DNA from: Jiangella sp. DSM 45060
Lineage (GTDB): Bacteria > Actinomycetota > Actinomycetes > Jiangellales > Jiangellaceae
Length of the DNA: 64,000 bases
Assembly (NCBI RefSeq): GCF_900105175.1
Contig: NZ_LT629771.1
Location: 6,158,622 to 6,222,621 of the forward strand
Direction: 5' to 3'
Below, in pieces: positions 46,158 through 63,470 of the stretch. Under the pieces are notes generated by a model. It was not told the DNA's origin, searched no databases, and worked only from the letters and a program-made list of their open reading frames with translations. Numbering within the stretch: position 1 is the stretch's first letter; the number at the start of each line of letters is the position of its first letter. Both the position numbers and the translations under genes were made by a program.

Positions 46158-47903
46158 CTAGCCGGGCTCCGGCACCTTGGTGAGGACGTCGACGAGCACC
46201 GGGACCCGCTGCTCCACGACGGTCGCGACCGCGGCGTCGAGCACCTCCGGCAGCTCCGCCGCCGTCCGGACCGGGCCGAACGCCGTCACCCCCATCGACC
46301 GCGCCATGTCGGCGAAGTCGATGGCCGGCTCGTCGATGGCCGTGCCGACGCCGGCCTTGGACGGGTCGCGGTTCCGGTCGCGGGCGATGCGGTCGGCGTG
46401 CATCACCGAGTTGTTGAACGCCCGGTTGTTGTCCATGACGACGAGCATCGGGACCCGGTGGTGCGCGGCGGTCCACAGCGCGCCCGGCGTCATCATGAAG
46501 TCGCCGTCGGACTGGACGTCGACGACCAGCCGGCCGGTGTCGCGGTGCGCCAGGCCGGCGCCGATGGCCGCGCCGATGCCGTAGCCCAGCCCGGCGCCGC
46601 CGGAGCTGCCGAGGTAGTCGTCGACGGTGTTCAGGTCCCAGAGCCGGTGCAGGTAGCCGTACGCGCTCCCGTTCGCGATGACGGGGTCCGTGCCGGCCGT
46701 GGCGCGCAGCAGCTCGCGCGCCAGCCACGCCGGGTGCACCGGGCCCGGGCCGTCCTGGGCGGCGGCGAACGCGGCCCACCGCTCCCGCGCCGCCCCGGTC
46801 AGCTCGGCCAGCCGCTTGGCGCGGTCGCGTGCCGCGGCCGCCAGCTCGGGCTCCCGCTCGACCAGCGCGCGCACCGCGGAGCGAAGCGCCAGCGCCGTGG
46901 CCGACGACGACGCGGGCAGCGCCAGCCGGCAGTGCTGAAGTCGTTGCAGGTCCGCCGCCCACGCCTTGGCGCCGAACTGCGCGGTGCCGGCGAGCGCGAC
47001 GGTGGCGTCGGGACGCGCCCGGAACCCGTGCAGGGCGGCGAGGTCGCGCACCTCCAGGGCCACGACGACGTCGGCCTCGGGCAGCTGCGCGGCCAGCCCG
47101 GTGGCGTTGTGCGGGTGCGCCGACGGGAAGCCGAGCGCGGGCCGGCCGTAGTCGCGCGACGGCTCCAGCACGGCCGCGCCGGTCAGCTCGGCCACCTCGA
47201 CCAGCGCGTCGAGCGCCGGCTGCGACCGGTCCACCGTCTCGACCGCGATGACCGGCGCCTCGGCCTCCAGCAGCCAGCGCGCCAGTTGCTCGACGGCGGC
47301 GGGGTCGGGCGCGACGAGGCCCGGCGCGGCGTAGTCGGCGACCGGCCGGTACGCGAACCCGTCCGGCAGCCGCTGCTCCTGCACGTCGGAGTCGAAGCAG
47401 ACGTACACCGGCCCGGGCGGCGCCCCGGTGGCCAGCTGGTAGGCGCGCACCAGCGACTCGGGCACCGCCTCGATCGAGGCTGGCTGGTCGTCCCAGCGGG
47501 TGTAGTCGCGCACCTGGGTGGCCTGGACGTTCGCCGTGTGGATCCAGTCGATCCACGGCCGCCGCCGTGCGGCGTCGACCGGTCCCGTGCCGCCGAGCAC
47601 CAGCACGGGCGCGCGGTCGCACCACGCGTTGTAGATGGCCATGGTGGCGTGCTGCAGGCCGACGACGTCGTGGACGGCGGCGGCCATCGGCCGACCGGCC
47701 GCCTTCGCGTAGCCGTGCGCGATGGCGACCGAGATCTCCTCGTGCGTGCACTCGATGATCTCCGGGACGCCGGCCCGGTAGTTGACCAGCGAGTCGTGGA
47801 TGCCACGGAAGGTGGCGCCCGGATTGCAGGCCACGAACTCGATGCCCAGCTCGTCGAGCAGGTCGACGATGACGTCAGAGCCGTACTCCGGCCGAGACTG
47901 CAT
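46158..47903 (-). CDS. Thiamine diphosphate-dependent decarboxylase-like enzyme
   Basis: 581 residues from ATG 47903. N-terminal domain with catalytic Glu in CTHEEISVAIAHGYAKA (about 55), central domain (about 200-345) and C-terminal domain with DVQSDGDFMMTPGALWTAA and VVMDNNRAFNN; the usual GDG is SDG here, with the closing Asn-Asn intact. Family members decarboxylate 2-oxo acids or act as carboligases. It follows the aldehyde dehydrogenase gene by 17 bases, an order suggesting 2-oxo acid to aldehyde to acid (as in benzoylformate breakdown). Not a close copy of the TPP enzyme at 6986-8629. Confidence 0.87.
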   Translation of the reverse strand: MQSRPEYGSDVIVDLLDELGIEFVACNPGATFRGIHDSLVNYRAGVPEIIECTHEEISVAIAHGYAKAAGRPMAAAVHDVVGLQHATMAIYNAWCDRAPVLVLGGTGPVDAARRRPWIDWIHTANVQATQVRDYTRWDDQPASIEAVPESLVRAYQLATGAPPGPVYVCFDSDVQEQRLPDGFAYRPVADYAAPGLVAPDPAAVEQLARWLLEAEAPVIAVETVDRSQPALDALVEVAELTGAAVLEPSRDYGRPALGFPSAHPHNATGLAAQLPEADVVVALEVRDLAALHGFRARPDATVALAGTAQFGAKAWAADLQRLQHCRLALPASSSATALALRSAVRALVEREPELAAAARDRAKRLAELTGAARERWAAFAAAQDGPGPVHPAWLARELLRATAGTDPVIANGSAYGYLHRLWDLNTVDDYLGSSGGAGLGYGIGAAIGAGLAHRDTGRLVVDVQSDGDFMMTPGALWTAAHHRVPMLVVMDNNRAFNNSVMHADRIARDRNRDPSKAGVGTAIDEPAIDFADMARSMGVTAFGPVRTAAELPEVLDAAVATVVEQRVPVLVDVLTKVPEPG

Positions 47904-47920
47904 GATCCCTCCCGGACCGG

Positions 47921-49390
47921 TCAGCGAAGCACGAGGTTGTAGGTCTTGACCTGGGTGTAGCCGAGCAGTTCCTCCATCGACTCCTCGCGCCCGACGCCGG
48001 ACTCCTTGACCCCGCCGAACGGCATGCCGATGAAGTGGGTGGAGGTGTCGTTGACCCACACGTAGCCGGCCCGCATCGCACGGGCCATCCGGTGGGCGCG
48101 GTCGAAGTCGCGCGTGTACACGCTGGCGGTCAGGCCGAAGTCGACGCCGTTGGCGACGTCGACGGCCTCCTGCTCGGTGCGGAACGTCAGGACGGAGATC
48201 ACCGGCCCGAAGATCTCGGTGCCGGCCACCCGCATGCCCGGCTCGACGCCGTCGAGCAGCGTCGCGGGGTAATAGTGGCCGCCGCCGGCAGGGGCGTCGC
48301 CGCCGCACACCAGCCGGGCGCCCTCGTCGAGCGCCGTCCGCACGTGCGCGGCGACGCGGTCGCGGTGGGCGGCCGAGATGAGCGGGCCCATGGTGACGCC
48401 GTCGTCGAACGGGGCGCCCACGACGACCTTCTCCAGCCGCTGGCGCAGCCTGTCGACGAGGTCCGCGGCGAGGTCGGCGTGCACCAGGACGCGCGACGTG
48501 GAACCGCAGGACTGGCCGGCGAAGGCGAAGTTCATGCCCTTGACGGCGCCCTCGACGACGGCGTCGAGGTCGGCGTCGGGGAAGACGACGAGGGCGTTCT
48601 TGCCGCCGAGCTCCAGCGAGACGTCCTTGACGCCCGACTCGGCCGCGGCCCGCTGGATGGCCCGGCCGGTCTGCGGACTCCCGGTGAAGGCGATGCGCCG
48701 CACGGCCGGATGGCGCACCAGCGCGTCGCCGGTCTCGACGCCGCTGCCGCTGACGACGGAGAACACGCCGGCGGGGACGTGCTCGGCCCACAGCTCGCCC
48801 AGCCGCAGCGCGGACAGCGGCGTGAGGTCGGACGGCTTGAGCACGACGGTGTTGCCGGCCACCAGCGGCGCGGCGATCTTGGAGGCGCCGAACATGCCGG
48901 GGTGGTTGTAGGCGATGATCCGCGCGACCACGCCGAACGGCACCCGCTCGGTGAAGTGGACGTTGCCGGTGCTGGACGGGATCGTCTCACCGCGCAGGTG
49001 CAGCGCCCAGTCGGCGAACATCCGCATGCGGTCGCCGGCGGTGCCGATGTCCTTGCGCATCATCCACAGCGGGAAGCCGCCGTCGAGGGAGTCGAGCCGG
49101 GCGATCTCCTCGACGTGCTGGTCGAGGACGTCGGCCAGCCGCCGGACGACGGCGGCCCGCTCGCGCACGTCGGTGCCGGCCCAGCCGGCCGCGGCGTCGT
49201 CGGCGGCCTGGACCGTGGCCGCGACGTCGGCCGCACCGGCGTCGGGCACCCGGGCGAGCGGCCCGCCCGTCGCGGGGTTCTCGACGTCGTACCGCGCGTC
49301 GCCGGCCGCCGGCGTCAACCGGCCGCCGCTCAGCAGCCGCCAGTCGTGCGCGGAGGGGTCGTCGAGCACCTGTCCGTCTGCCTGACTCAC
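47921..49390 (-). CDS. Aldehyde dehydrogenase (NAD(P)-dependent)
   Basis: 489 residues from GTG 49390. NAD-binding and catalytic elements: AYNHPGMFGASKIAAPLVAGNTVVLKPSDLTPL pieces (NTVVLKPSD), FTGSPQTGR, catalytic Glu in LELGGKN (about 260), catalytic Cys in GQSCGSTSRVL (about 293) and EIFGPVISVL. It oxidises an aldehyde to the acid. First gene of a two-gene unit with the TPP enzyme. The upstream region carries the CTGTAT element shared with the other units of this island. Confidence 0.94.
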   Translation of the reverse strand: MSQADGQVLDDPSAHDWRLLSGGRLTPAAGDARYDVENPATGGPLARVPDAGAADVAATVQAADDAAAGWAGTDVRERAAVVRRLADVLDQHVEEIARLDSLDGGFPLWMMRKDIGTAGDRMRMFADWALHLRGETIPSSTGNVHFTERVPFGVVARIIAYNHPGMFGASKIAAPLVAGNTVVLKPSDLTPLSALRLGELWAEHVPAGVFSVVSGSGVETGDALVRHPAVRRIAFTGSPQTGRAIQRAAAESGVKDVSLELGGKNALVVFPDADLDAVVEGAVKGMNFAFAGQSCGSTSRVLVHADLAADLVDRLRQRLEKVVVGAPFDDGVTMGPLISAAHRDRVAAHVRTALDEGARLVCGGDAPAGGGHYYPATLLDGVEPGMRVAGTEIFGPVISVLTFRTEQEAVDVANGVDFGLTASVYTRDFDRAHRMARAMRAGYVWVNDTSTHFIGMPFGGVKESGVGREESMEELLGYTQVKTYNLVLR

Positions 49391-49416
49391 TCGCAGCCTC
49401 CCTGATCGCTCGAATT

Positions 49417-49437
49417 AGATTCAAAATACAGTGTCTA
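49417..49437 (-). promoter_or_regulatory. Shared CTGTAT operator-like element, upstream of aldehyde dehydrogenase
   Basis: Minus strand TAGACACTGTATTTTGAATC, 27-47 bases before the GTG start. CTGTAT (49431-49426) with preceding TAGACnC is nearly identical to the element upstream of the hydrolase gene near 63400. Confidence 0.5.
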
Positions 49438-49457
49438 CTTCGCCTGTGGAAGGGGTG

Positions 49458-50327
49458 TCACACCAGCAGCAGCCCGGCCACGCCTCCGGCGATGAGGACG
49501 GCGCCGACGGCCGTGCGGGGACGGACCCGCTCCCGGTTGGCGAACAGCAGCACGCTGACCGGGATCACCACCATCGGCGTGGCGGCGGAGATCGCGACCG
49601 CCACCGACACCGGGAGGTACGCCGTCGACGCGATCACCGAGGCCTGCCCGCCGATCGTGAGCGCGCCGCTGAGCAGCCACAGCGCCAGGCCGCGGCGCGG
49701 CCGTCGCGGCCCGGCCACGGCCGACCAGGCCGGGCGATGCAGCGCCGCGTAGACCACGGTCGCGGCGACGGCGCCGGCCAGCGCGCCGAGCAGCGGCTCG
49801 GACCAGCGGTCCAGTGCGTCGCCGCGGATGATGTTCCCCACCGCGTACGCCGCCGCCGAGAACAGCCCCACGCCGATCTCCCGCCACGGCACGACGCCGC
49901 CGGCCAGCCGGCCGCTGGCGAGGTAGAGGCCGAGCATGACGCCGCCCATGCAGGCCAGCTCGACCGGCCCGAGCCGCTCGCCGAGCAGCAGCCAGCCGAG
50001 CACCAGCGCGAACGCCGGGCTGCTGTTCTGGATGGTGCTGGCCCGCGACGGCCCGATCGTCTCGACGGTGCGGAAGTACCCGCGGCGGCCGAGATAGCTG
50101 GCGAAGATCCCGGAGACGGCGAACATCCCTAGCGCGAACGGGTCGACCCGCAGCGGTTCGGCGCGCACCGCCAGGTGCCCGACCACCAGGACCGCGCCGA
50201 CCACGACGTTCGCCACCAGCGCCACGAGGAAGCCGGTCCGCTGTCCCATGTGCGCGGCGGCGGCCCGCACGACGAAGGCGTTGCCGGCGAACAACAGCAG
50301 CGCCAGCACCGCCAGCAGGTCACCCAT
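49458..50327 (-). CDS. EamA-family (DMT superfamily) transporter
   Basis: 289 residues with ten hydrophobic spans in two five-helix EamA repeats (about 1-140 and 150-289). Typical pieces: SSPAFALVLGWLLLGERLGPVE near the end of repeat one and SAATPMVVIPVSVLLFANRERVRPR in repeat two. Such carriers export amino acids or small metabolites. Start ATG 50327 overlaps the stop of the MFS gene by 8 bases; last gene of the importer unit. Confidence 0.9.
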   Translation of the reverse strand: MGDLLAVLALLLFAGNAFVVRAAAAHMGQRTGFLVALVANVVVGAVLVVGHLAVRAEPLRVDPFALGMFAVSGIFASYLGRRGYFRTVETIGPSRASTIQNSSPAFALVLGWLLLGERLGPVELACMGGVMLGLYLASGRLAGGVVPWREIGVGLFSAAAYAVGNIIRGDALDRWSEPLLGALAGAVAATVVYAALHRPAWSAVAGPRRPRRGLALWLLSGALTIGGQASVIASTAYLPVSVAVAISAATPMVVIPVSVLLFANRERVRPRTAVGAVLIAGGVAGLLLV

Positions 50328-51504
50328 GGGAGCGCCGCAACGACGTCTCCAGCCGGGACACCGGCACGAGGACGAACGCCAGCGCGGCGCCCGCCGCGGC
50401 CATCACGAGGAACACCGACGGCAGCGGCAGCAGGACCGCGAGCGCGCCGCAGGCGACCGGCGCCGCCAGCTTGCCGAGGTTGCGCACCGCACCGGTCAGC
50501 GACACGAAGGCGGCCCGCGCACCCGGCGGCGCCGCCTCGGTGACCAGCACGTTCTGCGCGACGGCGTAACAGCCGTCGGCCGCGCCGAAGGCCAGCAGGC
50601 TCGCCACCACCGCGACCGGCTGGGGTACGAGGCCGAGCACCACGAAGGCCGCCACCGTGACCACGATCGACGTCGCCACGACCGTCGCGGCCCGGAACCG
50701 GCGCAGCAACCGGCCCGACGCCGCGGCCGTCACCGCGCCGAGCACGCTCGCGGCGCCGAGCACGATGCCCGTGGCGGCCACCGACAGCCCGGCCTCCCGG
50801 ACCGCCAGCAGCGGGAAGTACGTCAGCAGCGCGAACTTGAAGAAGAACCGGAGGAACGCCAGCACCTGCAGGCCGACGATGCCGCCGTCGCGGAGGCTGT
50901 GCCCGACCTGGCGCAGGGTCGACGGCGGGCGGGCGGCCCGCTCCCCCGCGTCCGGCCGGTCCACGACGGACCGCGACGGAGGCGGCAGGACGAACCAGCC
51001 CCACAGCGCCACCGGCACCGCCAGCACCGACAGCGCGAACGGCGCGTACCACGCCACCGCCACGAGGAGTCCGGCCACGGCCGGCAGCACCGCCTCGCCG
51101 ACGGTCATGGCCACGATCCGCCGGCCCTGCGCGGCGGCCTGCGCCGGCCCGGTGAGTACGTCGCCGATGAGGGTGATCGTCAGCGCGAGGATCGCGCCGA
51201 ACGCCGCGCCCTGCACCGCGCGCGACACCAGGATCGGGACGAACGACGGCGCCAGCAGCGGCGCCAGGCCGGCCACCGCGAAGACCGCCAGGGAGAGACA
51301 GAGCACGGCCCGCCGCCCGAACCGCTCGGCGAGCAGGCCGGCGGGAACACCGAGGACGACGCCCGGCAGCAGGTAGGCGGTGGTGAACAGCGCCACCTCG
51401 GCGTCGTCGAGCGACAGCGCCTCCTGCATCGCCGGCAGCATCGGCGCCAGCCCCTGGACGCCGGTGGTGGCGACCGCGGCGGCTACGCACGCGACCGCCA
51501 CCAC
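50320..51504 (-). CDS. MFS transporter
   Basis: 394 residues, 12 predicted spans. Motif A is GLLAERFGRRAVL, and the second-half counterpart GRLLRRFRAATV. ATTGVQGLAPMLPAMQEAL at the N terminus is typical of the sugar-efflux/drug-efflux-like MFS groups. GTG 51504 is the most likely start; a preceding GTG codon (51507) and an upstream CTG are alternatives. It follows the binding-protein gene by 29 bases, so a co-expressed exporter or second importer for the pathway. Confidence 0.88.
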   Translation of the reverse strand: MVAVACVAAAVATTGVQGLAPMLPAMQEALSLDDAEVALFTTAYLLPGVVLGVPAGLLAERFGRRAVLCLSLAVFAVAGLAPLLAPSFVPILVSRAVQGAAFGAILALTITLIGDVLTGPAQAAAQGRRIVAMTVGEAVLPAVAGLLVAVAWYAPFALSVLAVPVALWGWFVLPPPSRSVVDRPDAGERAARPPSTLRQVGHSLRDGGIVGLQVLAFLRFFFKFALLTYFPLLAVREAGLSVAATGIVLGAASVLGAVTAAASGRLLRRFRAATVVATSIVVTVAAFVVLGLVPQPVAVVASLLAFGAADGCYAVAQNVLVTEAAPPGARAAFVSLTGAVRNLGKLAAPVACGALAVLLPLPSVFLVMAAAGAALAFVLVPVSRLETSLRRSHG

Positions 51505-51533
51505 CGGCCGGGACCGGCCCGGCCCCGGGTGGG

Positions 51534-52595: not shown

Positions 52596-52673
52596 GAGAA
52601 CCTCCGGATGAACAGACCGGCAACAGGGCCGGGACGTCGGAGAACCGCGAGATCGTGACAGCGCGACGTGGGG

Positions 52674-55091: not shown

Positions 55092-55130
55092 CAGATCCGT
55101 CCGTTCATGATGGGACATTCGTCTACATGA

Positions 55131-55142
55131 TTTTGGATACAC
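55131..55142 (-). promoter_or_regulatory. Shared TGTATCC operator-like element upstream of the ABC importer unit
   Basis: Minus strand GTGTATCCAAAA, 43 bases before ATG 55091 (16 before ATG 55118). Shares TGTATCCAA with the element at 63461-63470. Confidence 0.5.
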
Positions 55143-55210
55143 TAGGTGCGGTGCGCGAACGCGTCAACAGCGGGGAACGAGATTTCGGCGGCTGAGATCC
55201 GATCGAAACA

Positions 55211-55230
55211 CGGGCGCCCGCGGGCGCCCG
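55211..55230 (-). terminator. GC-rich palindrome after the gntR gene
   Basis: CGGGCGCCCG occurs twice in tandem, giving a perfect 20-bp palindrome that begins 1 base after the stop of the minus-strand gntR gene (55232) and is followed on that strand by TGTTTCG. A strong hairpin suited to termination in this genome, though without a long U tract. Confidence 0.5.
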
Positions 55231-55231
55231 G

Positions 55232-55945
55232 TCAGACGGTCTCGGATTCCTCTTGTTCGACCAGTGCCTGCAGCTCGACGGAGACCCGGCCGAGGTGCGT
55301 GGCCAGCCATGCCTTGGCCTTCTCGGTGTCGCCGGCTTCCAGGTGGGCGATGAGGCCGGGGTGCCCGCCGCGCTCGGGGACGCGGCGCAGCAGGAGGTAC
55401 CGGCCCACGGAGTCGCGCAGGTTCTTCGCCGAGGCGAGCGTGCGAGGCCGGTCGGCCAGCGCGTAGAGCCGCTCGTAGAACTCCTTGCGCAGTTCCAGCC
55501 CGGTGGCGAGGTCGGTGGTGTCGTCGAGCTGGACCGCGAGCCGCTTGAGGTCGTCGAGCACCTCAGGCGTGAGGTTGGGGATCGACAGCTCGATCAGGTG
55601 CCCCTCGAGCAGGATGCGCAGCTCGTAGATCTCGGCGATCTCGGACGGGCTGAGCACCGACACGGTGACGCCGCGGTGGGTGTGGATGCGCACCAGGCCC
55701 TCACCCTCGAGCTGCCGGAGGCTGGCCCGCACGGGCATGCGGCTCACGCCGAGATGCGATGCGATGGCGTCGAGGTTGAGGCGGTGGCCGGGTGGGAAGG
55801 CGCCCTGCAGGATGGCCTCGCGGATGAACGCCTGGGTCATCTCCTCGACGGTCATGAACGTGCCGCGCACGGACTTGGCGATGACGTCGAGCGTCTCGTC
55901 GTCGGCCGGGGCCGTCCCGCCATTGCGCGCGCTCGTCCTACCCAT
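55232..55945 (-). CDS. GntR-family regulator (FCD/VanR type) of the catabolic island
   Basis: 237 residues from ATG 55945. Winged helix with DAIASHLGVSRMPVRASLRQLEGEGLVRI pieces (HLGVSRMPVR) at about 50-80 and an FCD helical ligand domain (EIYELRILLEGHLIEL near 115; HLEAGDTEKAKAWLATHLGR near 215). One of the usual FCD metal-site His residues is not evident in FYERLYAL. It lies between the molybdenum-hydroxylase unit and the ABC unit and has the CTGTAT element at its own promoter; probable regulator of all four units. Confidence 0.9.
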   Translation of the reverse strand: MGRTSARNGGTAPADDETLDVIAKSVRGTFMTVEEMTQAFIREAILQGAFPPGHRLNLDAIASHLGVSRMPVRASLRQLEGEGLVRIHTHRGVTVSVLSPSEIAEIYELRILLEGHLIELSIPNLTPEVLDDLKRLAVQLDDTTDLATGLELRKEFYERLYALADRPRTLASAKNLRDSVGRYLLLRRVPERGGHPGLIAHLEAGDTEKAKAWLATHLGRVSVELQALVEQEESETV

Positions 55946-55969
55946 GCACGTTCCTCTGCTCTGAAGGGG

Positions 55970-55989
55970 TTATCAAGAATACAGTCATG
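55970..55989 (-). promoter_or_regulatory. Shared CTGTATTC operator-like element upstream of gntR
   Basis: Minus strand CATGACTGTATTCTTGATAA (55989-55970), 33 bases from the CTGTAT core to ATG 55945. Overlaps the stop codon of the upstream molybdenum-hydroxylase gene. Confidence 0.5.
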
Positions 55990-58276
55990 ACTGGCTACGT
56001 CCATTGATCAGGCGCCAGACGCGCTCGGGAGTGAGCGGGAGCCGGTCGGGCCAGCGACCCGTCGCCCGGGCCACGGCCGCCGCCACCGCCCCGCCGATCG
56101 GGTTGAGCGTGCCCTCCCCCGCGCCTTTGGCGCCATACGGTCCCACACCATCGCGGCGCTCGGCAATCATCAGATCGATCTTGCGTGGAAGATCCTGCAC
56201 CCGGGGCACGCGATAGTCGACGACGTTGGCGTTGGCGAGCTGCGCGCCGTCGTAGACGAGCTCCTCGTGCAGCGCGATGCCCAGGCCCTGGGTGGCGGCG
56301 CCGAGGTCCTGCCCCTCGACGGCGCGCGGGTTGATGGCGAAGCCGACGTCGGCGACGGTGACCAGCTGGTCGACGGCCACGACGCCGGTCTCGGGGTCGA
56401 TCTCCACCGCGACGCCGACCATGCCGACCTCCCAGAACGGCGGCATCTGCTGGGTCGCGCCGTCGCGGCGCAGCAACCCGACGCCGGTGACCTCGCCGGC
56501 CGACCCGCCGAACCACTGCCGCACGACGGCGCCGAAGTCGAGCTCGCGCCCGTCCGGGCCGGCCACCGCGCCGGGGAGGTCGCTGACGTCCTCGGGTGCG
56601 CATGAGAACAGCTCGGCGGCCATGTCGCGCAGCCGTGAGCGCGCGTCGGCGCAGGCGCGTTGCAGCGCGAGGCCGACCAGCGTGGTGGTGCGGCTGGCGC
56701 CGGTGGTCCGCTCGTACGGCGTCACGGAGGTGTCGGACTGGACCACGGTGACGACGGCGAGGTCGACGCCCAGCTCCTCGGCGGCGACCTGCGCGAGCAG
56801 CGAGCGGCTGCCCTGTCCCATCTCCGTCGACCCGCTGAGCACCAGCACGGAGCCGTCGGTCTGGATGCGGACCTGGGCGGTCGAGATCGGGTAGGCGCCG
56901 GCGTCGGACACGGAGCAGCCGAAGCCGATGCCGTAGTGCGCGACGTCCTTGCGGTCGCGCTCCAGCGACTCGACCACCATCTCGAGGTCGGCCGGGATGT
57001 CGGCGTCGATGCCGCGCTTGCCGGGCAGGATCGTCTCGCCCTTGCGCGCGAGGTTGCGCCGGCGGATGTCCGCGCCGGAGATGCCCAGCCGCTCGGCCGC
57101 CTGGTCGAGGTTGGTCTCGCCGGCGAGGTTGCCCTGCGGCGCCCCGAACCCGCGGTACGACGACGCCGGCGACGTGTTCGTGTAGACGGAGCGGCCGCGG
57201 ACGCGCAGGTTCGGTATGCGGTACGGGCCGAAGCAGCGGTTCACCGACTTCGCCATGACCAGCGGGCCGTTGTCGGCGTACGCGCCGGAGTCCATGACGA
57301 TGTCGAACTCGCGCGCCAGGATGGTGCCGTCGGCGGCGAACCCGCTCTTCACCCGGACACGCGCGGAGTCGACGCGGGTGGTGTAGATGGCCTCCTCGAC
57401 GCTCAGCGTCAGCTTCACCGGCCGGCCGGTGGCCCACGACGCCACCGACGCCAGCGGCTCGACCTTGGTGTACGACTTCGACCCGTAGCCGCCGCCGAGG
57501 TACGGCGACGTGACCCGCACACGCGACAGCGGCAGGTCGAAGACGCGCGCCAGGTCGTCGCGGACCATGTATGGGTGCTGCGCCGTGGAGACGACGGTCA
57601 GCGCGCCCTCGTGGTACGACGCCACCGCGTTGTACGGCTCCATGGCGTACGCGTAGAGCATCGGGAAGTGCACGGTGTTCTCGACGACGACGGCGGCCTC
57701 GGCGAACGCGGCGTCGACGTCGCCCCAGCCGATGCTCACCTCGTGGGCGAGGTTCGACAGTGCTGGTTCGGAGTCGTCGGCCTCTTCATCGACGTGCGAG
57801 AGGTTCTTGAACGACTCGTCGCCGGTGGCGTCGTAGGACCGCTCGTGCACCAGCGGCGCGCCCTCGGCCAGCGCGGCGTCGACGTCCATGACGGACGGCA
57901 GGTCCTCGTAGGACACCCGGACCAGTTCGACGGCGTCGGCGGCGGCCGCGACGGTCTCGGCGACGACGACGGCGACCGGCTCGCCGTAGTAGCGCACCTT
58001 CCCGGTGGCCAGGATCCAGTGGTCGGAGATGATGTGGCCGAACCGCGCGAACAGCGCCGAGAGGTCGTCGGCCGTCACCACGGCGACGACGCCGGGGCTC
58101 TTTAGCGCCGCCGCGACGTCGATGCCGGTGATGCGGGCGTGCGCGCGGTCGGAGCGGACGACCTTCGCGTGCGCCATGCCGGGCATCGTCACGTCGACGC
58201 AGTACTCCGCCGCGCCGGTGACCTTCTCGAGGAGGTCGGGCCGGCGCACCGACCGCCCGACGACGGTCTCACCCAT
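55985..58276 (-). CDS. Molybdenum hydroxylase large subunit (xanthine dehydrogenase family)
   Basis: 763 residues. Two-part molybdopterin-binding subunit: N-terminal a/b hammerhead domain (1-115) and C-terminal Mo-binding domain with TSPYLGGGYGSKSY, SSYRGFGAPQGNLAGE, GSTEMGQGSRSLLAQ and the catalytic Glu in GAKGAGEGTLNP. The active-site loop lacks the Cys of CO dehydrogenases (AYRCSFR), so this is a hydroxylase of the XdhB/aldehyde-oxidase type, inserting oxygen from water into an N-heterocycle or aldehyde. Overlaps the 2Fe-2S gene by 8 bases. No xdhC-type maturation gene is adjacent. Confidence 0.93.
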   Translation of the reverse strand: MGETVVGRSVRRPDLLEKVTGAAEYCVDVTMPGMAHAKVVRSDRAHARITGIDVAAALKSPGVVAVVTADDLSALFARFGHIISDHWILATGKVRYYGEPVAVVVAETVAAAADAVELVRVSYEDLPSVMDVDAALAEGAPLVHERSYDATGDESFKNLSHVDEEADDSEPALSNLAHEVSIGWGDVDAAFAEAAVVVENTVHFPMLYAYAMEPYNAVASYHEGALTVVSTAQHPYMVRDDLARVFDLPLSRVRVTSPYLGGGYGSKSYTKVEPLASVASWATGRPVKLTLSVEEAIYTTRVDSARVRVKSGFAADGTILAREFDIVMDSGAYADNGPLVMAKSVNRCFGPYRIPNLRVRGRSVYTNTSPASSYRGFGAPQGNLAGETNLDQAAERLGISGADIRRRNLARKGETILPGKRGIDADIPADLEMVVESLERDRKDVAHYGIGFGCSVSDAGAYPISTAQVRIQTDGSVLVLSGSTEMGQGSRSLLAQVAAEELGVDLAVVTVVQSDTSVTPYERTTGASRTTTLVGLALQRACADARSRLRDMAAELFSCAPEDVSDLPGAVAGPDGRELDFGAVVRQWFGGSAGEVTGVGLLRRDGATQQMPPFWEVGMVGVAVEIDPETGVVAVDQLVTVADVGFAINPRAVEGQDLGAATQGLGIALHEELVYDGAQLANANVVDYRVPRVQDLPRKIDLMIAERRDGVGPYGAKGAGEGTLNPIGGAVAAAVARATGRWPDRLPLTPERVWRLINGRSQS

Positions 58277-58772
58277 GCGCGCCTCCCCGCAGCTGCTCGG
58301 CGACCTGCTCGACCGCCTCGACGATCGGCTCGTAGCCGGTGCACCGGCAGATGTTGCCCTCGAGGTGCTCGACGATGGCCGCGCGGTCGGGCACGTCGTC
58401 GCCGTCGAGCAGCGCCTTCGACATCATCAGGAACCCGGGCGTGCAGAACCCGCACTGCAGCGCGAAGTTGTCGACGAACGACTCCTGCAGCGGGTGCAGC
58501 GTCTGCCCGTCGGACAGCCCTTCGACCGTGGTGACGGCGGCGCCGTCGGCGTCGGCGGTGAGGAACGTGCACGAGCTGACCGGCCGGCCGTCGACCAGCA
58601 CGGTGCACACACCGCACACCTGCAGCTCGCAGCTCACCTTCGTCCCGGTCAGGCCGAGATCCTCGCGCAGGAAGTCGGCCAGCAGCGACCGCGGTTCAAT
58701 CTGCCGGCTGACGCTGACGCCGTTGACGTCGACGGTCACCGGGACGCTGGGCGGCCCAGAAGGCTCGGTCAT
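58269..58772 (-). CDS. Molybdenum hydroxylase 2Fe-2S subunit
   Basis: 167 residues from ATG 58772. Plant-type ferredoxin cluster ligands C48, C53, C56 and C68 (CELQVCGVC...SSC; the family's usual Gly after CE is Leu-Gln here) and the second cluster C107, C110, C142 and C144 (CGFC...NICRCTGY). It passes electrons from the Mo centre to the FAD subunit. Start and stop overlap neighbours by 4-8 bases. Confidence 0.95.
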   Translation of the reverse strand: MTEPSGPPSVPVTVDVNGVSVSRQIEPRSLLADFLREDLGLTGTKVSCELQVCGVCTVLVDGRPVSSCTFLTADADGAAVTTVEGLSDGQTLHPLQESFVDNFALQCGFCTPGFLMMSKALLDGDDVPDRAAIVEHLEGNICRCTGYEPIVEAVEQVAEQLRGGAHG

Positions 58773-59572
58773 GCGCTCACCTGCTCCAGCTTGGCCAGGG
58801 CACGCCGCACGTAGACCGCGGTGACGTGCCGCTTGTACTCCTCGGACCCGGAGAGGTCCGGCGTGGGGTCGATCCAGCCCGCAACGGCGTCGGGGTCGAT
58901 CTCGCCGAGCGACCCGAACGACCATGCCATCGGCACCTCGCCGACCGCGCCGACGCCCAGCCGGTACCACCCGGCGGCGTCGTCGGCCAGCACCGCGACC
59001 CCGACCGTCGGCCGCTCCATGGTCTGGAACTTCACGTACGCGCCGCGCAGGCCGTCGCGCAGCGGGATGCGCACGTCGACCAGCAGCTCGTCGGGCTCCT
59101 TCTCCGCGTAGTACGGACCGGCCACGAACTCCTCGACCGTGACGGTGCGCCGGCCGGCGGGCGCGGCCAGCGTGACCGTGGCGCTCAGCGCCATGAGCAC
59201 CGTCGCGACGTCGGACTTCGGCTCGGCGAAGCAGAGGTTGCCGCCGATGGAGCCCTGGCTGCGCACCCGGGCGTTGCCGATGTGCTTCTCCATGCGGGCG
59301 AAGACCGGCAGCCGCTGCTGGATGACGGGGTGCGCGGCGAGGTCGGCGTGCCGCTCGGTCGCGCCGACGACCAGCACGTCGTCGTCGACGCGGACACCGG
59401 ACAGCTCGGGCACCCGCTTGAGGTCGACCAGCGCGTCGGGCCGGTGCAGGCCGGCCCGCATGGCGAGCAGGAGCTCGGTGCCGCCGCAGTACGGCACCGA
59501 GTCCTCGGACAGCTCGCGCAGCGCCTCGTCGAGCGTCGCGGGACGCCGCAACGCGAACGGCGGCAGCGTCAT
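58769..59572 (-). CDS. Molybdenum hydroxylase FAD-binding subunit
   Basis: 267 residues from ATG 59572. FAD-binding elements of the CoxM/XdhB type: VPYCGGTELLLAMRAG near 27-42 and ARVRSQGSIGGNLCFAEPKSD near 105-125 (family pattern TIGGNLxxxDPxxD). The C-terminal CO_deh_flav_C domain follows. Overlaps both neighbours by 4 bases (ATGA). Gene order here is CoxG-FAD-FeS-Mo along transcription. Confidence 0.93.
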   Translation of the reverse strand: MTLPPFALRRPATLDEALRELSEDSVPYCGGTELLLAMRAGLHRPDALVDLKRVPELSGVRVDDDVLVVGATERHADLAAHPVIQQRLPVFARMEKHIGNARVRSQGSIGGNLCFAEPKSDVATVLMALSATVTLAAPAGRRTVTVEEFVAGPYYAEKEPDELLVDVRIPLRDGLRGAYVKFQTMERPTVGVAVLADDAAGWYRLGVGAVGEVPMAWSFGSLGEIDPDAVAGWIDPTPDLSGSEEYKRHVTAVYVRRALAKLEQVSA

Positions 59573-60030
59573 ACGGCGCCCAGCACCTTCTCGGCGTTGG
59601 CGAAGAACTCGCCGATGATCTTCTCGGCCTTCTTGTTGATGGTCCCGCCGCCCATGGCCGCGACCTTGCCGCTGACCTCGTAGACGCCGGCCACGCGCAC
59701 CGTGGTGCCGCCGTCGCCGGACGGTGCGAGGTCGAGCGTCGCGTCGACGACGAGCCGGGAGCCGACCTGGCGGTCCTCGCCCTCGGCGTGCACCGTGACG
59801 TGCTCCTCGGTGCGGACGTCGCTGAGCGTGATGGCGAGGTCGGCGCGCAGCTTGAACGGGCCGAGGCGGTCCAGCAGCACCGCCGAGTACCTGGCCAGGT
59901 GCTCGTGCTCCTCGGCCTGCTCGAGCACGCTGATCCACGACACCAGCACGGGCACGTCGATCAGCGTCGCCCACGCCTGCGCCGGCGCCGCGGACACCGT
60001 CAGCTCCCGGCCGAACTCACTTCGAGGCAT
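59569..60030 (-). CDS. SRPBCC-family protein, CoxG-like
   Basis: 153 residues. CoxG/SRPBCC features: FGRELTVSAAPAQAWATLIDVPVLVSWI at the N terminus and the C-terminal amphipathic helix MGGGTINKKAEKIIGEFFANAEKVL. CoxG-type proteins anchor molybdenum hydroxylases to the membrane or the quinone pool. ATG 60030. Gene overlaps the FAD-subunit gene by 4 bases, so it belongs to the hydroxylase unit. Confidence 0.9.
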   Translation of the reverse strand: MPRSEFGRELTVSAAPAQAWATLIDVPVLVSWISVLEQAEEHEHLARYSAVLLDRLGPFKLRADLAITLSDVRTEEHVTVHAEGEDRQVGSRLVVDATLDLAPSGDGGTTVRVAGVYEVSGKVAAMGGGTINKKAEKIIGEFFANAEKVLGAV

Positions 60031-60046
60031 GCGGGCCCCCTTCTCG

Positions 60047-61027
60047 TCAGCCCTTGAGCTTGGGCAGGACCTCGTTGCCGAGCAGCTCGATCTGGTCGAA
60101 CCACTTGTCGAACTTGAAGCGGAAGTCGAAGACCAGGTGCTCGACGCCGGCTGCCTCGAACTTACGGCATTCCTCGACGGCGCCGTCGACGTCGCCCGCG
60201 ATCAGCTGGCCCTCGAGATCGTCGACCGTCTCGAACGTGCCCGACGGCGGCTTGACCGCCCACTTGGACTTGTTCGCCCAGGCCAGCAGGCCGGGGATGT
60301 TGACGTGCTGGAGCGCCTCCTCGCGGGTGCGCTCGATCGAGGTCGGCGGGATGACGGCGATCGTGGGGCGCGGCTTGCCGGCCGCGGCCGACAGCTCCTC
60401 GATCGTCTCGACCCGCTTCTTCAGCGTGGCCATCGCGATGCGGCCGGGCATCCAGCCGTCGCAGAACTCCACCGCGAGGCGGGCCGAGCGCGGCGTGGCG
60501 CCGCAGTACCAGAACGGGATGCGCCCGCCCAGCGGCTTCGGCTCGATGGTGATGTCCTCGAACGAGAAGTTGTCGTCCTTGTAGGTGACCTCGTTCTCGG
60601 TGAAGACCCGCTTGAGGATCTCCGCGTTGGAGCGGACCAGCTCGACGCGGTCGCGGTCGCCCCAGCCGATCGCCTCGAACTCGTGGTCGAACGTGCCGGC
60701 CCCGAACCCGAGGATCAGCCGGTCGGCGCCCAGCAGGTGCGACATGGTGCCGGCCATGAGCGCCGTGACCAGCGGGTGCCGGAACGGGATCAGCGAGCCG
60801 GTGCCCAGCTGGATCCGCTCGGTGACCGCGCCGATGGCGGTGAGCGTGGTCAGCGCGTCGTAGAACGTCCGGTTCGGCTTCTCCATCTCGCCGTGCGGCT
60901 CGAAGACCAGGTGGTCGCGCACCCACACGGAGTCGAAGCCGAGCTCCTCGGCCCGCTGCGAGCCGCGCAGCAGCTTGTCGCGGTCGGCCTGCTCACCGAA
61001 GTGGGGCAGCAGAAGTCCATACTTCAT
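60047..61027 (-). CDS. LLM-class flavin-dependent oxidoreductase
   Basis: 326 residues from ATG 61027 (GAAGGACG upstream). Luciferase-like barrel: YGLLLPHFGEQAD, GFDSVWVRDHL, GTGSLIPFRHPLV, GFGAGTFDHEFEAIGW and IPFWYCGATPRSARLAVEFCDGWMP. Whether it uses FMN or coenzyme F420 cannot be told; F420 is common in actinomycetes. In RutA-like pathways such enzymes open pyrimidine rings; that is an analogy only. Lies 16 bases before the CoxG-like gene and 12 after the amidohydrolase. Confidence 0.9.
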   Translation of the reverse strand: MKYGLLLPHFGEQADRDKLLRGSQRAEELGFDSVWVRDHLVFEPHGEMEKPNRTFYDALTTLTAIGAVTERIQLGTGSLIPFRHPLVTALMAGTMSHLLGADRLILGFGAGTFDHEFEAIGWGDRDRVELVRSNAEILKRVFTENEVTYKDDNFSFEDITIEPKPLGGRIPFWYCGATPRSARLAVEFCDGWMPGRIAMATLKKRVETIEELSAAAGKPRPTIAVIPPTSIERTREEALQHVNIPGLLAWANKSKWAVKPPSGTFETVDDLEGQLIAGDVDGAVEECRKFEAAGVEHLVFDFRFKFDKWFDQIELLGNEVLPKLKG

Positions 61028-61039
61028 CGTCAACGTCCT

Positions 61040-62428
61040 TCAGGCGGAGGGGTGGGCGGTGGCGAGCCGGCCGTGGCCGGGCTTCCCGACGACGGCGCCG
61101 TCGGCGAACACGTCCGTGCCGCGGACGAGCGTGCGCTCGAACCGGACGCCGAGGCTGCGGCCGTCGTACGGCGTCCAGCCGATGCGGGAGAGGACGTCGT
61201 CGTTGGTGATGGTCCACGGGCTGTCGAGGTTCGCGACCACCAGGTCGGCGTCGTAGCCGACGGCGATGCGGCCCTTGCGGCCCGTGAGGCCGAACGCGTC
61301 GGCCGGTCGGCGGGCGGCGGCCTCGACGGCGCGCTCGAGCGGGAGCTTGCCCAGGCGGACCGCGTCGAGCAGCAGCGGGTAGTAGTACTGGATGCCGGGG
61401 GTGCCGGTGTGGGCGCTCCACATCTTCGTCCAGCCGACCTCCTTCTCCTCGCGCGTGTGCGGCGCGTGGTCGGAGGAGATCATGTCGATGGTGCCGTCGA
61501 GCAGCCCCTCCCACACGGCCGCCCGGTGGTCGTCGGGCACCCAGTACGACAGCACGTACGGGCCCTGCGTCTCGACGTCGCTCCACGTGGACAGGAACAG
61601 CGCCCAGTGGTTCACCTCGCCGGTGACGTCGACGCCGCGGGCCTTGGCCCGGCGCACCGCGTCGATGGACCGGCGGGTCTGCATGTGCGCGATGTGGATG
61701 GGGCAGCCCGACGCCTCGGACAGCCGCAGCACGACGTCGATGGCGGTGTCCCAGATGACGCCGTCGCGGGCGGCGTAGGCGCTGGCGTAGCCCTGCGGGG
61801 TGTTGTCGCCGCGGGCCAGCACCTCGCCCTCGATGTAGTCCATCAGCGCCTGGTCGTGCGGGTGGATGATGAATCGCTTCCCGGTGGGCTTGATGCGGTC
61901 CATCATCTGCAGCAGGTGGCCGTGGTCGTGCATGCCGGTGCCGGCCGGGTGCGGGTAGGTGCGGCCGGTGTCGACGACCATGTAGATCTTGTACGCGTTG
62001 ATGCCGGCCTCGGCCATCGACGCGATGTCGTCGAAGTTCGTCGGCGCCGGGTTGTGGTTGTAGTCGACGATCGACTTCTCCGCGTACAGCGCCATGACCT
62101 CGTCGAGCGTCTTGCGGTCGGTCGTCGGCGGGTCGAGGTTCGGCATGCCGAAGATCGTCGTGACGCCGCCCACCGCCGCCTGCTCGGTGGTGGTGATGAT
62201 GTCTTCCTTGTGCGTGTACCCGGGCTCGCGGGTGTGCACGTGGACGTCGACCATGCCGGGCAGCACCAGCCGGCCGGTGGCGTCGACGACGGTCGCGTCG
62301 TCGCCGATGGCGGTGCCGGGCGAGACCAGCCCCGCGATGGTGCCGTCGTCGCCGATCAGGATGTCGGCGCGGACCGTGCCGTCCGGAGTGACGACGTCGC
62401 CTCCGCTGATCCGGGTGGTCACTGCCAT
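61040..62428 (-). CDS. Dihydroorotase/hydantoinase/allantoinase-family cyclic amidohydrolase
   Basis: 462 residues. Metal ligands: H63 and H65 in DVHVHTREPGY, carboxylated Lys K147 in INAYKIYM, His in FIIHPHD (189/191), H245/H248 in IHIAHMQ, and D320 with H321 in SSDHAPHT. The enzyme opens cyclic amides or imides (hydantoin, dihydropyrimidine, dihydroorotate, allantoin). Pyrimidine-biosynthetic dihydroorotase is unlikely given the catabolic neighbours. It begins 1 base after the hydrolase stop. Confidence 0.92.
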   Translation of the reverse strand: MAVTTRISGGDVVTPDGTVRADILIGDDGTIAGLVSPGTAIGDDATVVDATGRLVLPGMVDVHVHTREPGYTHKEDIITTTEQAAVGGVTTIFGMPNLDPPTTDRKTLDEVMALYAEKSIVDYNHNPAPTNFDDIASMAEAGINAYKIYMVVDTGRTYPHPAGTGMHDHGHLLQMMDRIKPTGKRFIIHPHDQALMDYIEGEVLARGDNTPQGYASAYAARDGVIWDTAIDVVLRLSEASGCPIHIAHMQTRRSIDAVRRAKARGVDVTGEVNHWALFLSTWSDVETQGPYVLSYWVPDDHRAAVWEGLLDGTIDMISSDHAPHTREEKEVGWTKMWSAHTGTPGIQYYYPLLLDAVRLGKLPLERAVEAAARRPADAFGLTGRKGRIAVGYDADLVVANLDSPWTITNDDVLSRIGWTPYDGRSLGVRFERTLVRGTDVFADGAVVGKPGHGRLATAHPSA

Positions 62429-62429
62429 G

Positions 62430-63371
62430 TCACTGCCCCTCCAGATACGTCACCGATTCGGCCCGGCCGTCCTGCGTGGTGATGACGACGTCGCCGTTGG
62501 TCAGGTAGGTGTCGAACCAGCCCACGATCGCCGGGGTGACCTTCTCCCAGTACTTGTCGTAGGCGGCGTAGTGCGTGGTGTGGCGCTGCATGACCAGGCT
62601 GCGCGGGCCCTTGGCGGCCTCGTAGATCGCGACGGCGTGGTCGGTCGGCGTGGTGGCGTCGCCCTCGATGCCGATGACCAGCAGCGGCGTCGTCAGCGTC
62701 CGAGCGGCGCTCAGCGGGTCGTACTCGAGGATCTCGTCGGCCGCGGCCAGCGAGACCGCCGTCGGGATGCGGCTGTCGACGTCGGCCTTCACCGTCGTGG
62801 CGCGCCGCTCCGGCGTCGGGACCATGATCTCCTCGCGCGGGTGGACCAGCCGGCCCTTGCCCGTGGTGACCCGCTCGCGGCGGTCGTCGTCGAGGCCCTT
62901 GAGGAAGTCGAGCCACTCGTACTCCGAGCGCATGCGGTGCAGCCAGTCGCGTCCGTTCGCGACGGGGAGCTGGCTGACGGCGGCCCGCACGCGGTCGTCG
63001 ACGGCGGCCAGCAGGACGGCGTTGCCGCCGCCGGTGCCGCCGGAGCCGAACACGCCGATCCGGTCGGCGTCGACGTCGTCGCGCGTGGTCAGGTAGGTGA
63101 CGGCGTTGCGCAGGTCCTGCAGCTGGACGGCCGGCGAGAGCTTCTTCTCGCCCTCGGAGTCGCCGAAGCCCCGGTAGTCGAGGATCAGCACGCCGAAACC
63201 CGCGGCGGTGAGCGCCTCGTGGTACCGGACGTACAGCTTCGCGTCCTTCAGGCCCAGCCAGCCCGGCCCCTGCACGATGGCCCGCAGCGGCCCGTCGGAC
63301 CGATCCGGCGTGCGCCAGGACGCCGAGATCCGGCTGCCCTCGCTATAGAAGACGACGTCTTCGCTCCGCAT
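62430..63371 (-). CDS. Alpha/beta hydrolase (S9/S15/dienelactone-hydrolase-like)
   Basis: 313 residues. Features: ISASWRTPD, IVQGPGWLGLKDAK (oxyanion region), VLILDYRGFGDSEG, nucleophile in GVFGSGGTGGGNAV (Ser near 132), LLVIGIEGDATTPTDHAVA (Asp) and a terminal THYAAYD His. Resembles YcjY/FrsA-type hydrolases. First gene of the unit that continues into the amidohydrolase, LLM and molybdenum-hydroxylase genes. Could cleave an ester, amide or C-C bond late in the pathway. Confidence 0.86.
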   Translation of the reverse strand: MRSEDVVFYSEGSRISASWRTPDRSDGPLRAIVQGPGWLGLKDAKLYVRYHEALTAAGFGVLILDYRGFGDSEGEKKLSPAVQLQDLRNAVTYLTTRDDVDADRIGVFGSGGTGGGNAVLLAAVDDRVRAAVSQLPVANGRDWLHRMRSEYEWLDFLKGLDDDRRERVTTGKGRLVHPREEIMVPTPERRATTVKADVDSRIPTAVSLAAADEILEYDPLSAARTLTTPLLVIGIEGDATTPTDHAVAIYEAAKGPRSLVMQRHTTHYAAYDKYWEKVTPAIVGWFDTYLTNGDVVITTQDGRAESVTYLEGQ

Positions 63372-63460: not shown

Positions 63461-63470
63461 TTGTATCCAA
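63461..63470. promoter_or_regulatory. Additional TTGTATCCAA element
   Basis: TTGTATCCAA, symmetrical at its outer TTG/CAA ends, 90 bases upstream of the hydrolase start. It could be a second binding site of the same regulator or belong to a gene beyond the window. Confidence 0.4.

Follow-up and report, generated by a model that had tools for sequence, protein, structure and literature searches.

The core of a probable catabolic locus in Jiangella sp. DSM 45060 is a triad of an α/β-hydrolase-fold protein (ABH), a cyclic amidohydrolase (AHY) and a luciferase-like oxidoreductase (LLM), and the recurrence of this triad in distant genomes goes beyond chance. The locus probably serves the uptake and opening of a nitrogen-containing ring compound by this soil actinomycete. 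It occupies positions 46158–63371 of the window (the whole stretch of 64,000 nucleotides that was analysed) in a genome consisting of a single contig of 7.49 Mb. All 16 genes lie on the minus strand and all have family matches in Pfam or NCBIfam, so the gene inventory of the initial annotation holds for every gene it named; the GntR/FCD regulator is an addition to that list. The genes are as follows:

62430–63371, minus: ABH, α/β-hydrolase-fold protein (S15/UilS-like), core triad; Pfam S15/PETase-like
61040–62428, minus: AHY, cyclic amidohydrolase, core triad; Amidohydro_1
60047–61027, minus: LLM, luciferase-like oxidoreductase, core triad; Bac_luciferase, 149.5 bits
59569–60030, minus: CoxG-like accessory protein; PF06240, 50.7 bits
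58769–59572, minus: Mo hydroxylase, FAD subunit; PF00941
58269–58772, minus: Mo hydroxylase, [2Fe-2S] subunit; PF01799 and PF00111, 8 cysteines
55985–58276, minus: Mo hydroxylase, molybdopterin subunit; PF02738, PF20256 and PF01315, GAGEG present, AYRCxFR absent
55232–55945, minus: GntR/FCD regulator; PF00392 and PF07729
54306–55118, minus: ABC importer ATPase, swappable block; PF00005
53465–54316, minus: ABC permease 1; PF00528
52674–53465, minus: ABC permease 2; PF00528
51534–52595, minus: NMT1/SsuA-type solute-binding lipoprotein; PF09084, 25.7 bits, cysteine after a signal-like N-terminus in the translation
50320–51504, minus: MFS transporter; PF07690, 171.3 bits
49458–50327, minus: EamA transporter; PF00892
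47921–49390, minus: aldehyde dehydrogenase (ALDH), accessory; PF00171, 516.6 bits
46158–47903, minus: TPP-dependent enzyme, accessory; TPP_enzyme_N and C, best NCBIfam score 238 against a cut-off of 456

Starts were corrected for the TPP enzyme, the FAD and FeS subunits and the second permease. The genes are separated by −11 to +39 bases. Larger gaps are found in three places only: 113 bases following GntR, 78 ahead of the binding protein and 67 ahead of ALDH. A sigma-70 scan found no promoter, and terminator-like sites number 5 against 3.3 expected. A serpin gene (44927–46147) follows on the same strand, 10 bases after the TPP gene.

Within the class, ABH, AHY and LLM have one and the same distribution (15 of 393 genomes), and the three also occur in MAGs of Chloroflexi, Acidobacteria and Myxococcales. 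An AHY relative of at least 43% identity is present at 44 loci of the genome collection (57 matched loci minus 13 at 28–32% identity); of these, 40 contain ABH, 39 LLM and 22 the Mo subunit. These counts include L034, L058 and L074, all with ABH and AHY and the first and last also with LLM; the LLM-type neighbours at L030 (34%) and L038 (27%) are non-orthologues and were excluded from the LLM counts, while the LLM alignment still includes them. On plasmids AHY matches reach only 35–39% identity (8 records), and no ABH match was found there at E 1e-30. Since the three genes are kept or lost jointly across phyla, they very likely share one job. All three proteins score below the cut-offs of the NCBIfam models listed for them, and a description of the triad itself was not found in the titles and abstract starts of the matching open-licence PubMed Central papers, which is weak evidence of absence. 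The Mo hydroxylase and the GntR regulator often accompany the triad, and the former is dispensable: the Mo-subunit match at E 1e-100 is missing in 6 of 21 triad genomes and G019 has a 38% match only, which places the Mo step outside the core.

The rest of the 17 kb is more variable. Among nine Jiangella genomes with the triad, the importer–EamA–ALDH–TPP block is present in four, different genes follow GntR in three, and contig ends cut the region in two. The TPP orthologue is absent from the five genomes in which the block is not seen, and G015 has a 44% homologue. The initial annotation had treated the whole region as one fixed pathway, which these genomes contradict, and had placed a 2-oxo acid decarboxylation and an aldehyde oxidation after ring opening, steps that are not general, since both the block and the TPP orthologue vary within the genus. 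The TPP enzyme scores 149.4 with the benzoylformate decarboxylase model NF005485 (cut-off 493). The only match to the solute-binding protein was weak (3qsl, E 0.00013) and gave no hint of a ligand; carboxylate importers of the Tct or DASS type are used at other loci.

The strongest conservation of residues is found in AHY. The binuclear metal set H63, H65, K147, H189, H248 and D320 is complete in all 47 aligned sequences, as are the dihydroorotase-type residues R67, N97 and H324. The columns of the latter align with the HVHLREPG/MPN/DHAPH positions of 3mpg, which we take to bind the dihydroorotate carboxylate. The nearest structure is the L-hydantoinase 1gkr (Z 56.3, 445 aligned residues, rmsd 1.6), a comparison that informs on the fold alone. 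The complete metal set and this fold support the earlier proposal that the locus takes up and opens a cyclic amide or imide. Of the 56 NCBIfam models matched by AHY, 25 were listed, and its score stays under the cut-off of each. The nearest miss is the dihydroorotase model TIGR00857 (254.5 against 279.05); the others include dihydroorotase NF002668 (289.6 against 452), allantoinase TIGR03178 (267.9 against 357.85), D-hydantoinase/dihydropyrimidinase TIGR02033 (222.8 against 393.25) and the hydantoin-5-propionate amidohydrolase ErtD, NF058539 (207.9 against 650).

The canonical GxSxG serine is missing in ABH, where the motif reads FG[ST]GGTGGGN, with G111-G112-T113 in 40 of 40 aligned sequences, and the G111 region aligns with GI-SLGG of 7qjm, the nearest structure to the AlphaFold model (pLDDT 88.3; Z 38.3, 288 aligned residues, rmsd 1.8), again a comparison of fold alone. 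A shifted Ser/Thr110 or Thr113 may conceivably act as the nucleophile. The match to the UilS lactonase model is weak (139.9 against a cut-off of 400), and a serine-less ABH as near-constant partner in the triad is a puzzle of chemistry.

What is the cofactor of the LLM then? Its score with the F420 subfamily model TIGR03619 is just below the cut-off (149.3 against 166.9), while with RutA (TIGR03612) it reaches 25.8 bits against 498.3. The Mo subunit is also below the xanthine dehydrogenase cut-offs (NF043082, 444.2 against 780; TIGR03196, 395.7 against 783.65), in line with the mismatch with a purine or Rut pathway that the initial annotation remarked on. The LLM need not have the uracil-type activity considered there, as several triad neighbourhoods point to F420, a cofactor that the initial annotation left out of account. 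All 13 triad genomes tested have CofD and CofE matches over the cut-off; in the window genome (G000) these score 399.1 and 227 bits, respectively, again over the cut-off. In Microbacterium (L042) CofE, F420-G6P dehydrogenase, CofC and CofD lie 3.7–7.2 kb upstream of the triad. Ten further LLM-type neighbours were scanned and six are F420-G6P dehydrogenases over the cut-off, at loci of Actinomycetota, Chloroflexi, Myxococcales and Acidobacteria; the one in Jatrophihabitans (L038) directly follows AHY. With F420 genes near the triad in several lineages, the locus is possibly F420-linked. Against this link, such genes are widespread in these groups in general. No F420 gene was found near the window triad, and the CofH domain model of FO synthase (TIGR03551) has no match in the window genome; 7 of 20 AHY-bearing genomes have a match over its cut-off. 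An F420 route would therefore need another source of FO. We had inferred from the missing CofH an LLM using FMN only, and withdrew this, given CofD and CofE in all tested genomes and the F420 genes near the triad, keeping it as an alternative discussed below.

What was observed is the gene content, the co-inheritance of the triad, the conserved residues, and the F420 tail-assembly genes and their position close to the triad in several lineages. From this we infer a substrate, a cofactor for the window LLM and all of the reactions, as follows. A carboxylated N-heterocycle of the nicotinate, isonicotinate, picolinate or orotate type would be imported by the ABC system, and the Mo hydroxylase would add an oxo group next to a ring nitrogen, giving a lactam or imide tautomer. 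The LLM would saturate a ring bond with reduced F420, AHY, as a dihydroorotase/hydantoinase-like enzyme, would hydrolyse the now non-aromatic cyclic amide, and ABH, without its usual serine nucleophile, would process the ring-opened acid. The TPP enzyme and ALDH would then provide strain-specific finishing steps. We favour this sequence of Mo hydroxylation, F420H2-dependent ring reduction and ring opening by AHY tentatively, as a reading that could well be correct; the Tct and DASS carboxylate importers of other loci and the aspartase gene beside LLM in Mycolicibacterium L041 also speak for it. Isonicotinate via citrazinate, orotate, picolinate and nicotinate are chemically plausible candidate substrates, as known pathways also indicate; matching genes for these four routes were not found in the literature searched. 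More speculative, although possible, is the broader view that the triad marks an aerobic pathway that is widespread yet undescribed. LLM and F420H2 would here de-aromatise an N-heterocyclic carboxylate, a dihydroorotase-like enzyme would hydrolyse it, a serine-less ABH of new function would be a near-constant partner, and organisms such as Jiangella would obtain FO without the usual FO synthase.

In a rather unlikely oxidative route, the LLM would be an FMNH2-dependent monooxygenase cleaving the ring or a ring amide, with AHY and ABH hydrolysing the fragments. RutA, TgnB and pyridine monooxygenase are precedents for such cleavage, and the missing CofH match, the LLM score just under the F420 cut-off and three flavin-reductase-domain genes elsewhere in the window genome are in line with it. 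However, no flavin reductase was found among the Pfam-scanned neighbours of the triad, the RutA score is far too low, and the constant CofD and CofE, as well as the F420-G6P dehydrogenase genes close to the triad in several phyla, argue for F420. The dihydroorotase-type residues of AHY would also fit a plain breakdown of orotate, dihydroorotate or hydantoin-5-acetate, with orotate reduced by the LLM and AHY yielding N-carbamoylaspartate, then aspartate and fumarate. An aspartase follows LLM in Mycolicibacterium L041 (698 against a cut-off of 510), with cluster relatives in L029 and L035, and M20 proteins are found at Chloroflexi and Acidobacteria loci. Nevertheless, we consider this improbable, since aspartase-type genes cluster in 4 loci only, the M20 proteins score far below the ArgE/DapE cut-off, AHY is under the best dihydroorotase models and nearest in fold to an L-hydantoinase, and orotate, from its chemistry, would lack a site for the Mo hydroxylase.

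It is quite improbable that the 17 kb do form a single pathway, in which the TPP enzyme would decarboxylate a heteroaryl-2-carboxylate and the Mo hydroxylase oxidise the freed position. In the precedent, lumichrome breakdown, LumK/LumL decarboxylate and LumJ then oxidises (PMC12746152), and the lum cluster of Nocardioides simplex, also actinobacterial, similarly unites ring hydrolases with a TPP enzyme and a xanthine-oxidase-type Mo enzyme. TPP homologues of at least 35% identity are present in 5 of 41 loci, and G403 has three TPP matches (E 1e-60) within 14 kb of a Mo-subunit relative; but in G015 and G401 the TPP and Mo-subunit matches are on separate contigs, and five of the nine triad Jiangella lack the orthologue. 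According to the available excerpt of that report (PMC12746152), the lum TPP enzyme consists of two small subunits (LumK and LumL, 20 and 23 kDa), unlike the 581-residue enzyme here, and the cluster includes a P450 and Rieske and catechol dioxygenases, with no LLM protein among the genes named in the excerpt. As the P450, Rieske dioxygenase and catechol dioxygenase are absent among our 16 genes and the TPP enzyme differs in architecture, we rejected riboflavin/lumichrome breakdown as the identity of the locus. Finally, the Mo enzyme might oxidise an aldehyde, CO or another acid, with a lactone or peptide-like natural product as the substrate of ABH and AHY, outside any heterocycle pathway. The presence of CoxG and the weak UilS-lactonase likeness of ABH point this way, but the CO dehydrogenase motif AYRCxFR is absent, the CoxL score is low (TIGR02416, 269 against 991.15), the canonical serine is missing in ABH and AHY belongs to the hydantoinase/allantoinase/dihydroorotase fold group, making this very improbable.

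The proposed hydroxylation, F420H2-dependent reduction and hydrolysis would resemble reductive pyrimidine catabolism, which uses dihydropyrimidine dehydrogenase and dihydropyrimidinase: there, too, ring reduction precedes opening by an amidohydrolase of the same superfamily as AHY. In contrast, an LLM, likely F420-dependent, would replace the FAD/FeS reductase, ABH is extra, and a Mo hydroxylase is often present. The Rut uracil pathway likewise has an LLM enzyme and an α/β hydrolase in a ring-opening operon, but the window LLM is far from RutA and the amidohydrolase family differs. In picrate/dinitrophenol breakdown, F420H2-dependent hydride transferases of the LLM class add hydride onto an aromatic ring, with a substrate class and partner enzymes different from those of the window LLM. 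The kpi cluster for 4-hydroxypyridine also combines an amidohydrolase (KpiC) and an α/β hydrolase (KpiB) for heterocycle ring opening (PMC7356986). KpiC, however, is described as an extradiol dioxygenase of PF01979 outside the characterised groups and KpiA is a flavin-dependent monooxygenase, and the available excerpt names neither a Mo hydroxylase nor an LLM (PMC7356986). If the LLM is F420-dependent, the roles of F420 in soil bacteria would extend to ring reduction of N-heterocycles, and the F420 genes near the triad in several lineages would be explained. The identity of the substrate would show which vitamin, alkaloid or pollutant such bacteria remove from soil.

A 9-base motif provides a candidate operator at two sites:

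63462–63470, plus: candidate operator TGTATCCAA, about 90 bases upstream of ABH; one of two exact genomic copies
55133–55141, minus: candidate operator TGTATCCAA, before the ABC genes; the second exact genomic copy

Both sites are kept in the three other variant-1 genomes. The motif is post hoc, picked from its own two sites; its reversed control also occurs twice in the genome, and with one mismatch allowed, 26 of 100 window shuffles contain at least the two matches observed. Upstream of ABH, a search for the pattern TnGTnnnACnA found no site. Further TGKATNCA sites are located at 5186 and, within the TPP gene, at 47539. Among 31 de-duplicated loci, 11 have TGKATNCA upstream of ABH, where shuffling gives 0.57 on average and at most 4; six of these 11 (L014, L016, L017, L023, L042 and L043) share a nearly identical sequence.

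The initial annotation proposed a 17-kb island (46158-63371) for breakdown of an N-heterocycle or cyclic imide. Every gene that it listed is found, on the minus strand; a GntR/FCD regulator gene had been left unnamed, and the interpretation is right in part only. From high to low coordinates the cluster reads:

62430-63371, minus strand, alpha/beta-hydrolase-fold protein (ABH), first of the cluster
61040-62428, minus strand, hydantoinase/dihydroorotase-like amidohydrolase (AHY)
60047-61027, minus strand, luciferase-like oxidoreductase (LLM)
59569-60030, minus strand, CoxG
58769-59572, minus strand, FAD subunit of the Mo hydroxylase
58269-58772, minus strand, FeS subunit
55985-58276, minus strand, molybdopterin (Mo) subunit
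55232-55945, minus strand, GntR/FCD regulator
from GntR down to 46158, minus strand, ABC ATPase, two permeases, NMT1-type binding protein, MFS, EamA, ALDH and TPP enzyme

Most adjacent genes overlap or are at most 39 bases apart, with wider gaps between GntR and the ATPase (113 bases), ahead of the binding protein (78) and ahead of ALDH (67). The genome is a single contig of 7,485,957 bases, and the G+C content of the cluster (0.71 and 0.726) is close to that of the remaining window (0.735), so composition shows no sign of recent acquisition.

The cluster is a catabolic module for ring opening, built on a core of three tightly linked genes, ABH-AHY-LLM (the triad), in which ABH lacks the canonical serine. 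The enzyme families are already known; the combination seems undescribed, as a literature search of open-licence PubMed Central found no description of it. Searches of 393 genomes of the class with the window proteins returned AHY (E 1e-100), ABH and LLM (E 1e-60 each) in the identical 15 genomes, nine of them Jiangella, in 6 of 137 genera. A named genome collection gave 57 loci, of which 44 with an AHY relative of at least 43% identity were kept and 13 (28-32%) left out; within the locus DNA searched, ABH (at least 40% identity) is present in 40 of the 44 and LLM in 39. The exceptions are L057, L030 and L044, where neither ABH nor LLM was found in that DNA, L038 without LLM, L052 (a 4.4-kb contig) without ABH, and L058, which is cut by a contig end. 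Hosts are Actinomycetota, together with MAGs that are labelled Chloroflexi, Acidobacteria/Bryobacterales or Myxococcales. The search for the same gene set in other genomes, suggested with the original proposal, shows the triad recurring together, while the full 17-kb set is not constant. Two loci (L059:53-2359 and L051) carry extra ABH and AHY paralogues (~40-50% identity) beside the triad, which may mean that ring opening there involves more than one cyclic bond.

The metal ligands of AHY are invariant in 47/47 sequences, as are R67, N97 and H324; in a comparison with 3mpg these three correspond to the HVHLREPG, MPN and DHAPH positions that hold the substrate carboxylate in dihydroorotases. 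The allantoinases and L-hydantoinase compared differ from AHY at one or more of these positions. The predicted model (pLDDT 89.3) is nearest in fold to L-hydantoinase 1gkr (Z 56.3, 445 residues, 1.6 Å), followed by allantoinase (Z 50.5) and dihydroorotases (Z ~47-49). AHY falls under the cut-off of each of the 25 NCBIfam models listed of 56 matched, the nearest miss among the matches listed being the dihydroorotase subfamily TIGR00857 (254.5 against 279.05). In a Gaiella MAG (L044:8261-11407) AHY follows a hydantoinase-B/oxoprolinase domain in one fused protein and adjoins a caprolactamase-alpha-like gene, an arrangement that again points toward cyclic amides; ABH and LLM are not found at that locus.

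At the expected serine-nucleophile site the strand-turn-helix of ABH reads FG[ST]GGTGGG in 40/40 sequences, where the nearest solved structure, 7qjm (Z 38.3), has GISLGG. Position 110 holds Ser in 22 of them and Thr in the other 18, and Thr113, H267 and D238 are invariant. Judging from these alignments, ABH may use another nucleophile (110 or 113) or perform non-hydrolytic chemistry.

What cofactor does LLM use? It scores under the F420 model TIGR03619, yet close to it (149.3 against 166.9). CofH, one domain of the FO synthase of F420 biosynthesis, has no match in the window genome, which at first suggested FMN, and it exceeds the cut-off in 7 of 20 AHY-bearing genomes (these include the Gaiella MAG without ABH and LLM). 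The FMN reading was reversed by the biosynthetic CofE and CofD, both over cut-off in 13/13 triad genomes, the window genome among them, and in 3/14 control genomes in each search (three archaea for CofE). CofD and CofE without a CofH match occur in the window genome, Agromyces L023, Microbacterium L042, Actinotalea L036 and Chloroflexi G400, G401 and G403. In L042 the interval 0.9-5.4 kb contains a TIGR03557 LLM, CofE, F420-glucose-6-phosphate dehydrogenase (621 against a cut-off of 420), CofC and CofD, and the triad is at 9.0-12.4 kb; in genomes G131 and G288 the triad is flanked, within ~20 kb, by genes for CofE and CofD. The dehydrogenase passes its equivalog cut-off in 6 of 10 further LLM-type neighbours scanned (L031, L038, L040, L056, L059, L060), the rest being TIGR03557-type (L022, L039, L050) or TIGR03619-type (L029); in L038, where no LLM orthologue was found, its start meets the end of AHY. 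Relatives at least 50% identical to the Microbacterium dehydrogenase occur in 12/58 loci (tblastn; ~48 distinct places), although many of the F420-neighbour loci are related and the counts cover triad-bearing loci. F420 is common in these bacterial groups, its use in the window genome would call for FO from another source, and in the window the sole match to the F420 queries is the triad LLM itself (26%). The case for F420 use by LLM is good but circumstantial.

The Mo hydroxylase is a frequent yet dispensable partner of the triad. Its Mo subunit (at least 40% identity) is present in 22/44 loci and, at E 1e-100, in 9/9 triad Jiangella and 0/3 triad-negative ones; at this threshold it is unmatched in 6/21 triad genomes (G131, G177, G288, G393, G395, G405), and the sole match in triad genome G019 is only 38% identical. 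The window protein is under the cut-off of 13/13 NCBIfam models matched, and the CO dehydrogenase loop was not found in it. The Actinotalea cluster also has XdhC and a MobA-like nucleotidyltransferase. The Chloroflexi MAG G403 (L088, L089, L090) has ten Mo-subunit relatives, and each of its three TPP-enzyme matches (E 1e-60) lies within 14 kb of one; in G015 and G401 the two kinds of match fall on separate contigs.

The ABC-EamA-ALDH-TPP half is a swappable block, present in 4/9 triad Jiangella (window, G005, G006, G013), with MFS matched in all of these except G006. The remaining five retain a GntR 66-68% identical, and none has a TPP orthologue (G015 has a 44% homologue). Downstream of GntR, G010, G012 and G014 carry another gene set, in G012 (L078:2275-10609) MFS_3, another alpha/beta hydrolase, a small cupin, TctC, TctA, an AhpC-type protein and a two-domain cupin; the G007 and G015 loci are cut by contig ends. 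A serpin-family gene (44927-46147, minus strand), 10 bases past the TPP gene, stands at the same region end in G005, G006, G010, G013 and G014, and so stays in place when the block is exchanged. TPP relatives recur in 5/41 loci (L033, L038, L039, L041, L059), so the TPP gene looks accessory rather than accidental.

Importers elsewhere are Tct systems (Mycolicibacterium, Actinotalea), a DASS carboxylate transporter (an Acidobacterium locus) and an NMT1-type ABC system (Agromyces, Microbacterium); carboxylate importers across several lineages fit an acidic substrate. Other neighbours are an aspartase (698 against 510 in L041) and a class II aldolase downstream of LLM in Mycolicibacterium, M20 proteins in Chloroflexi and Acidobacteria loci, a cupin weakly resembling gentisate dioxygenase (L053) and, in Microbacteriaceae and a few others, CaiB-type CoA-transferase (10/58 loci), Zn-alcohol dehydrogenase (11/58) and LigB-type dioxygenase (4/58). 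These enzymes are compatible with an acidic ring-opened product, and no single substrate is fixed by them.

A 9-mer, TGTATCCAA, with exactly two copies in the genome, marks two candidate operators:

63462-63470, upstream of ABH
55133-55141, ahead of the ABC genes

Both sites are retained in the 3/3 other block-bearing Jiangella. Since the motif was chosen from these two sites and the reversed pattern likewise has two genome copies, it is suggestive only. A pattern TGKATNCA occurs upstream of ABH in 11/31 loci, against a shuffle mean of 0.57, six of the 11 being near-copies.
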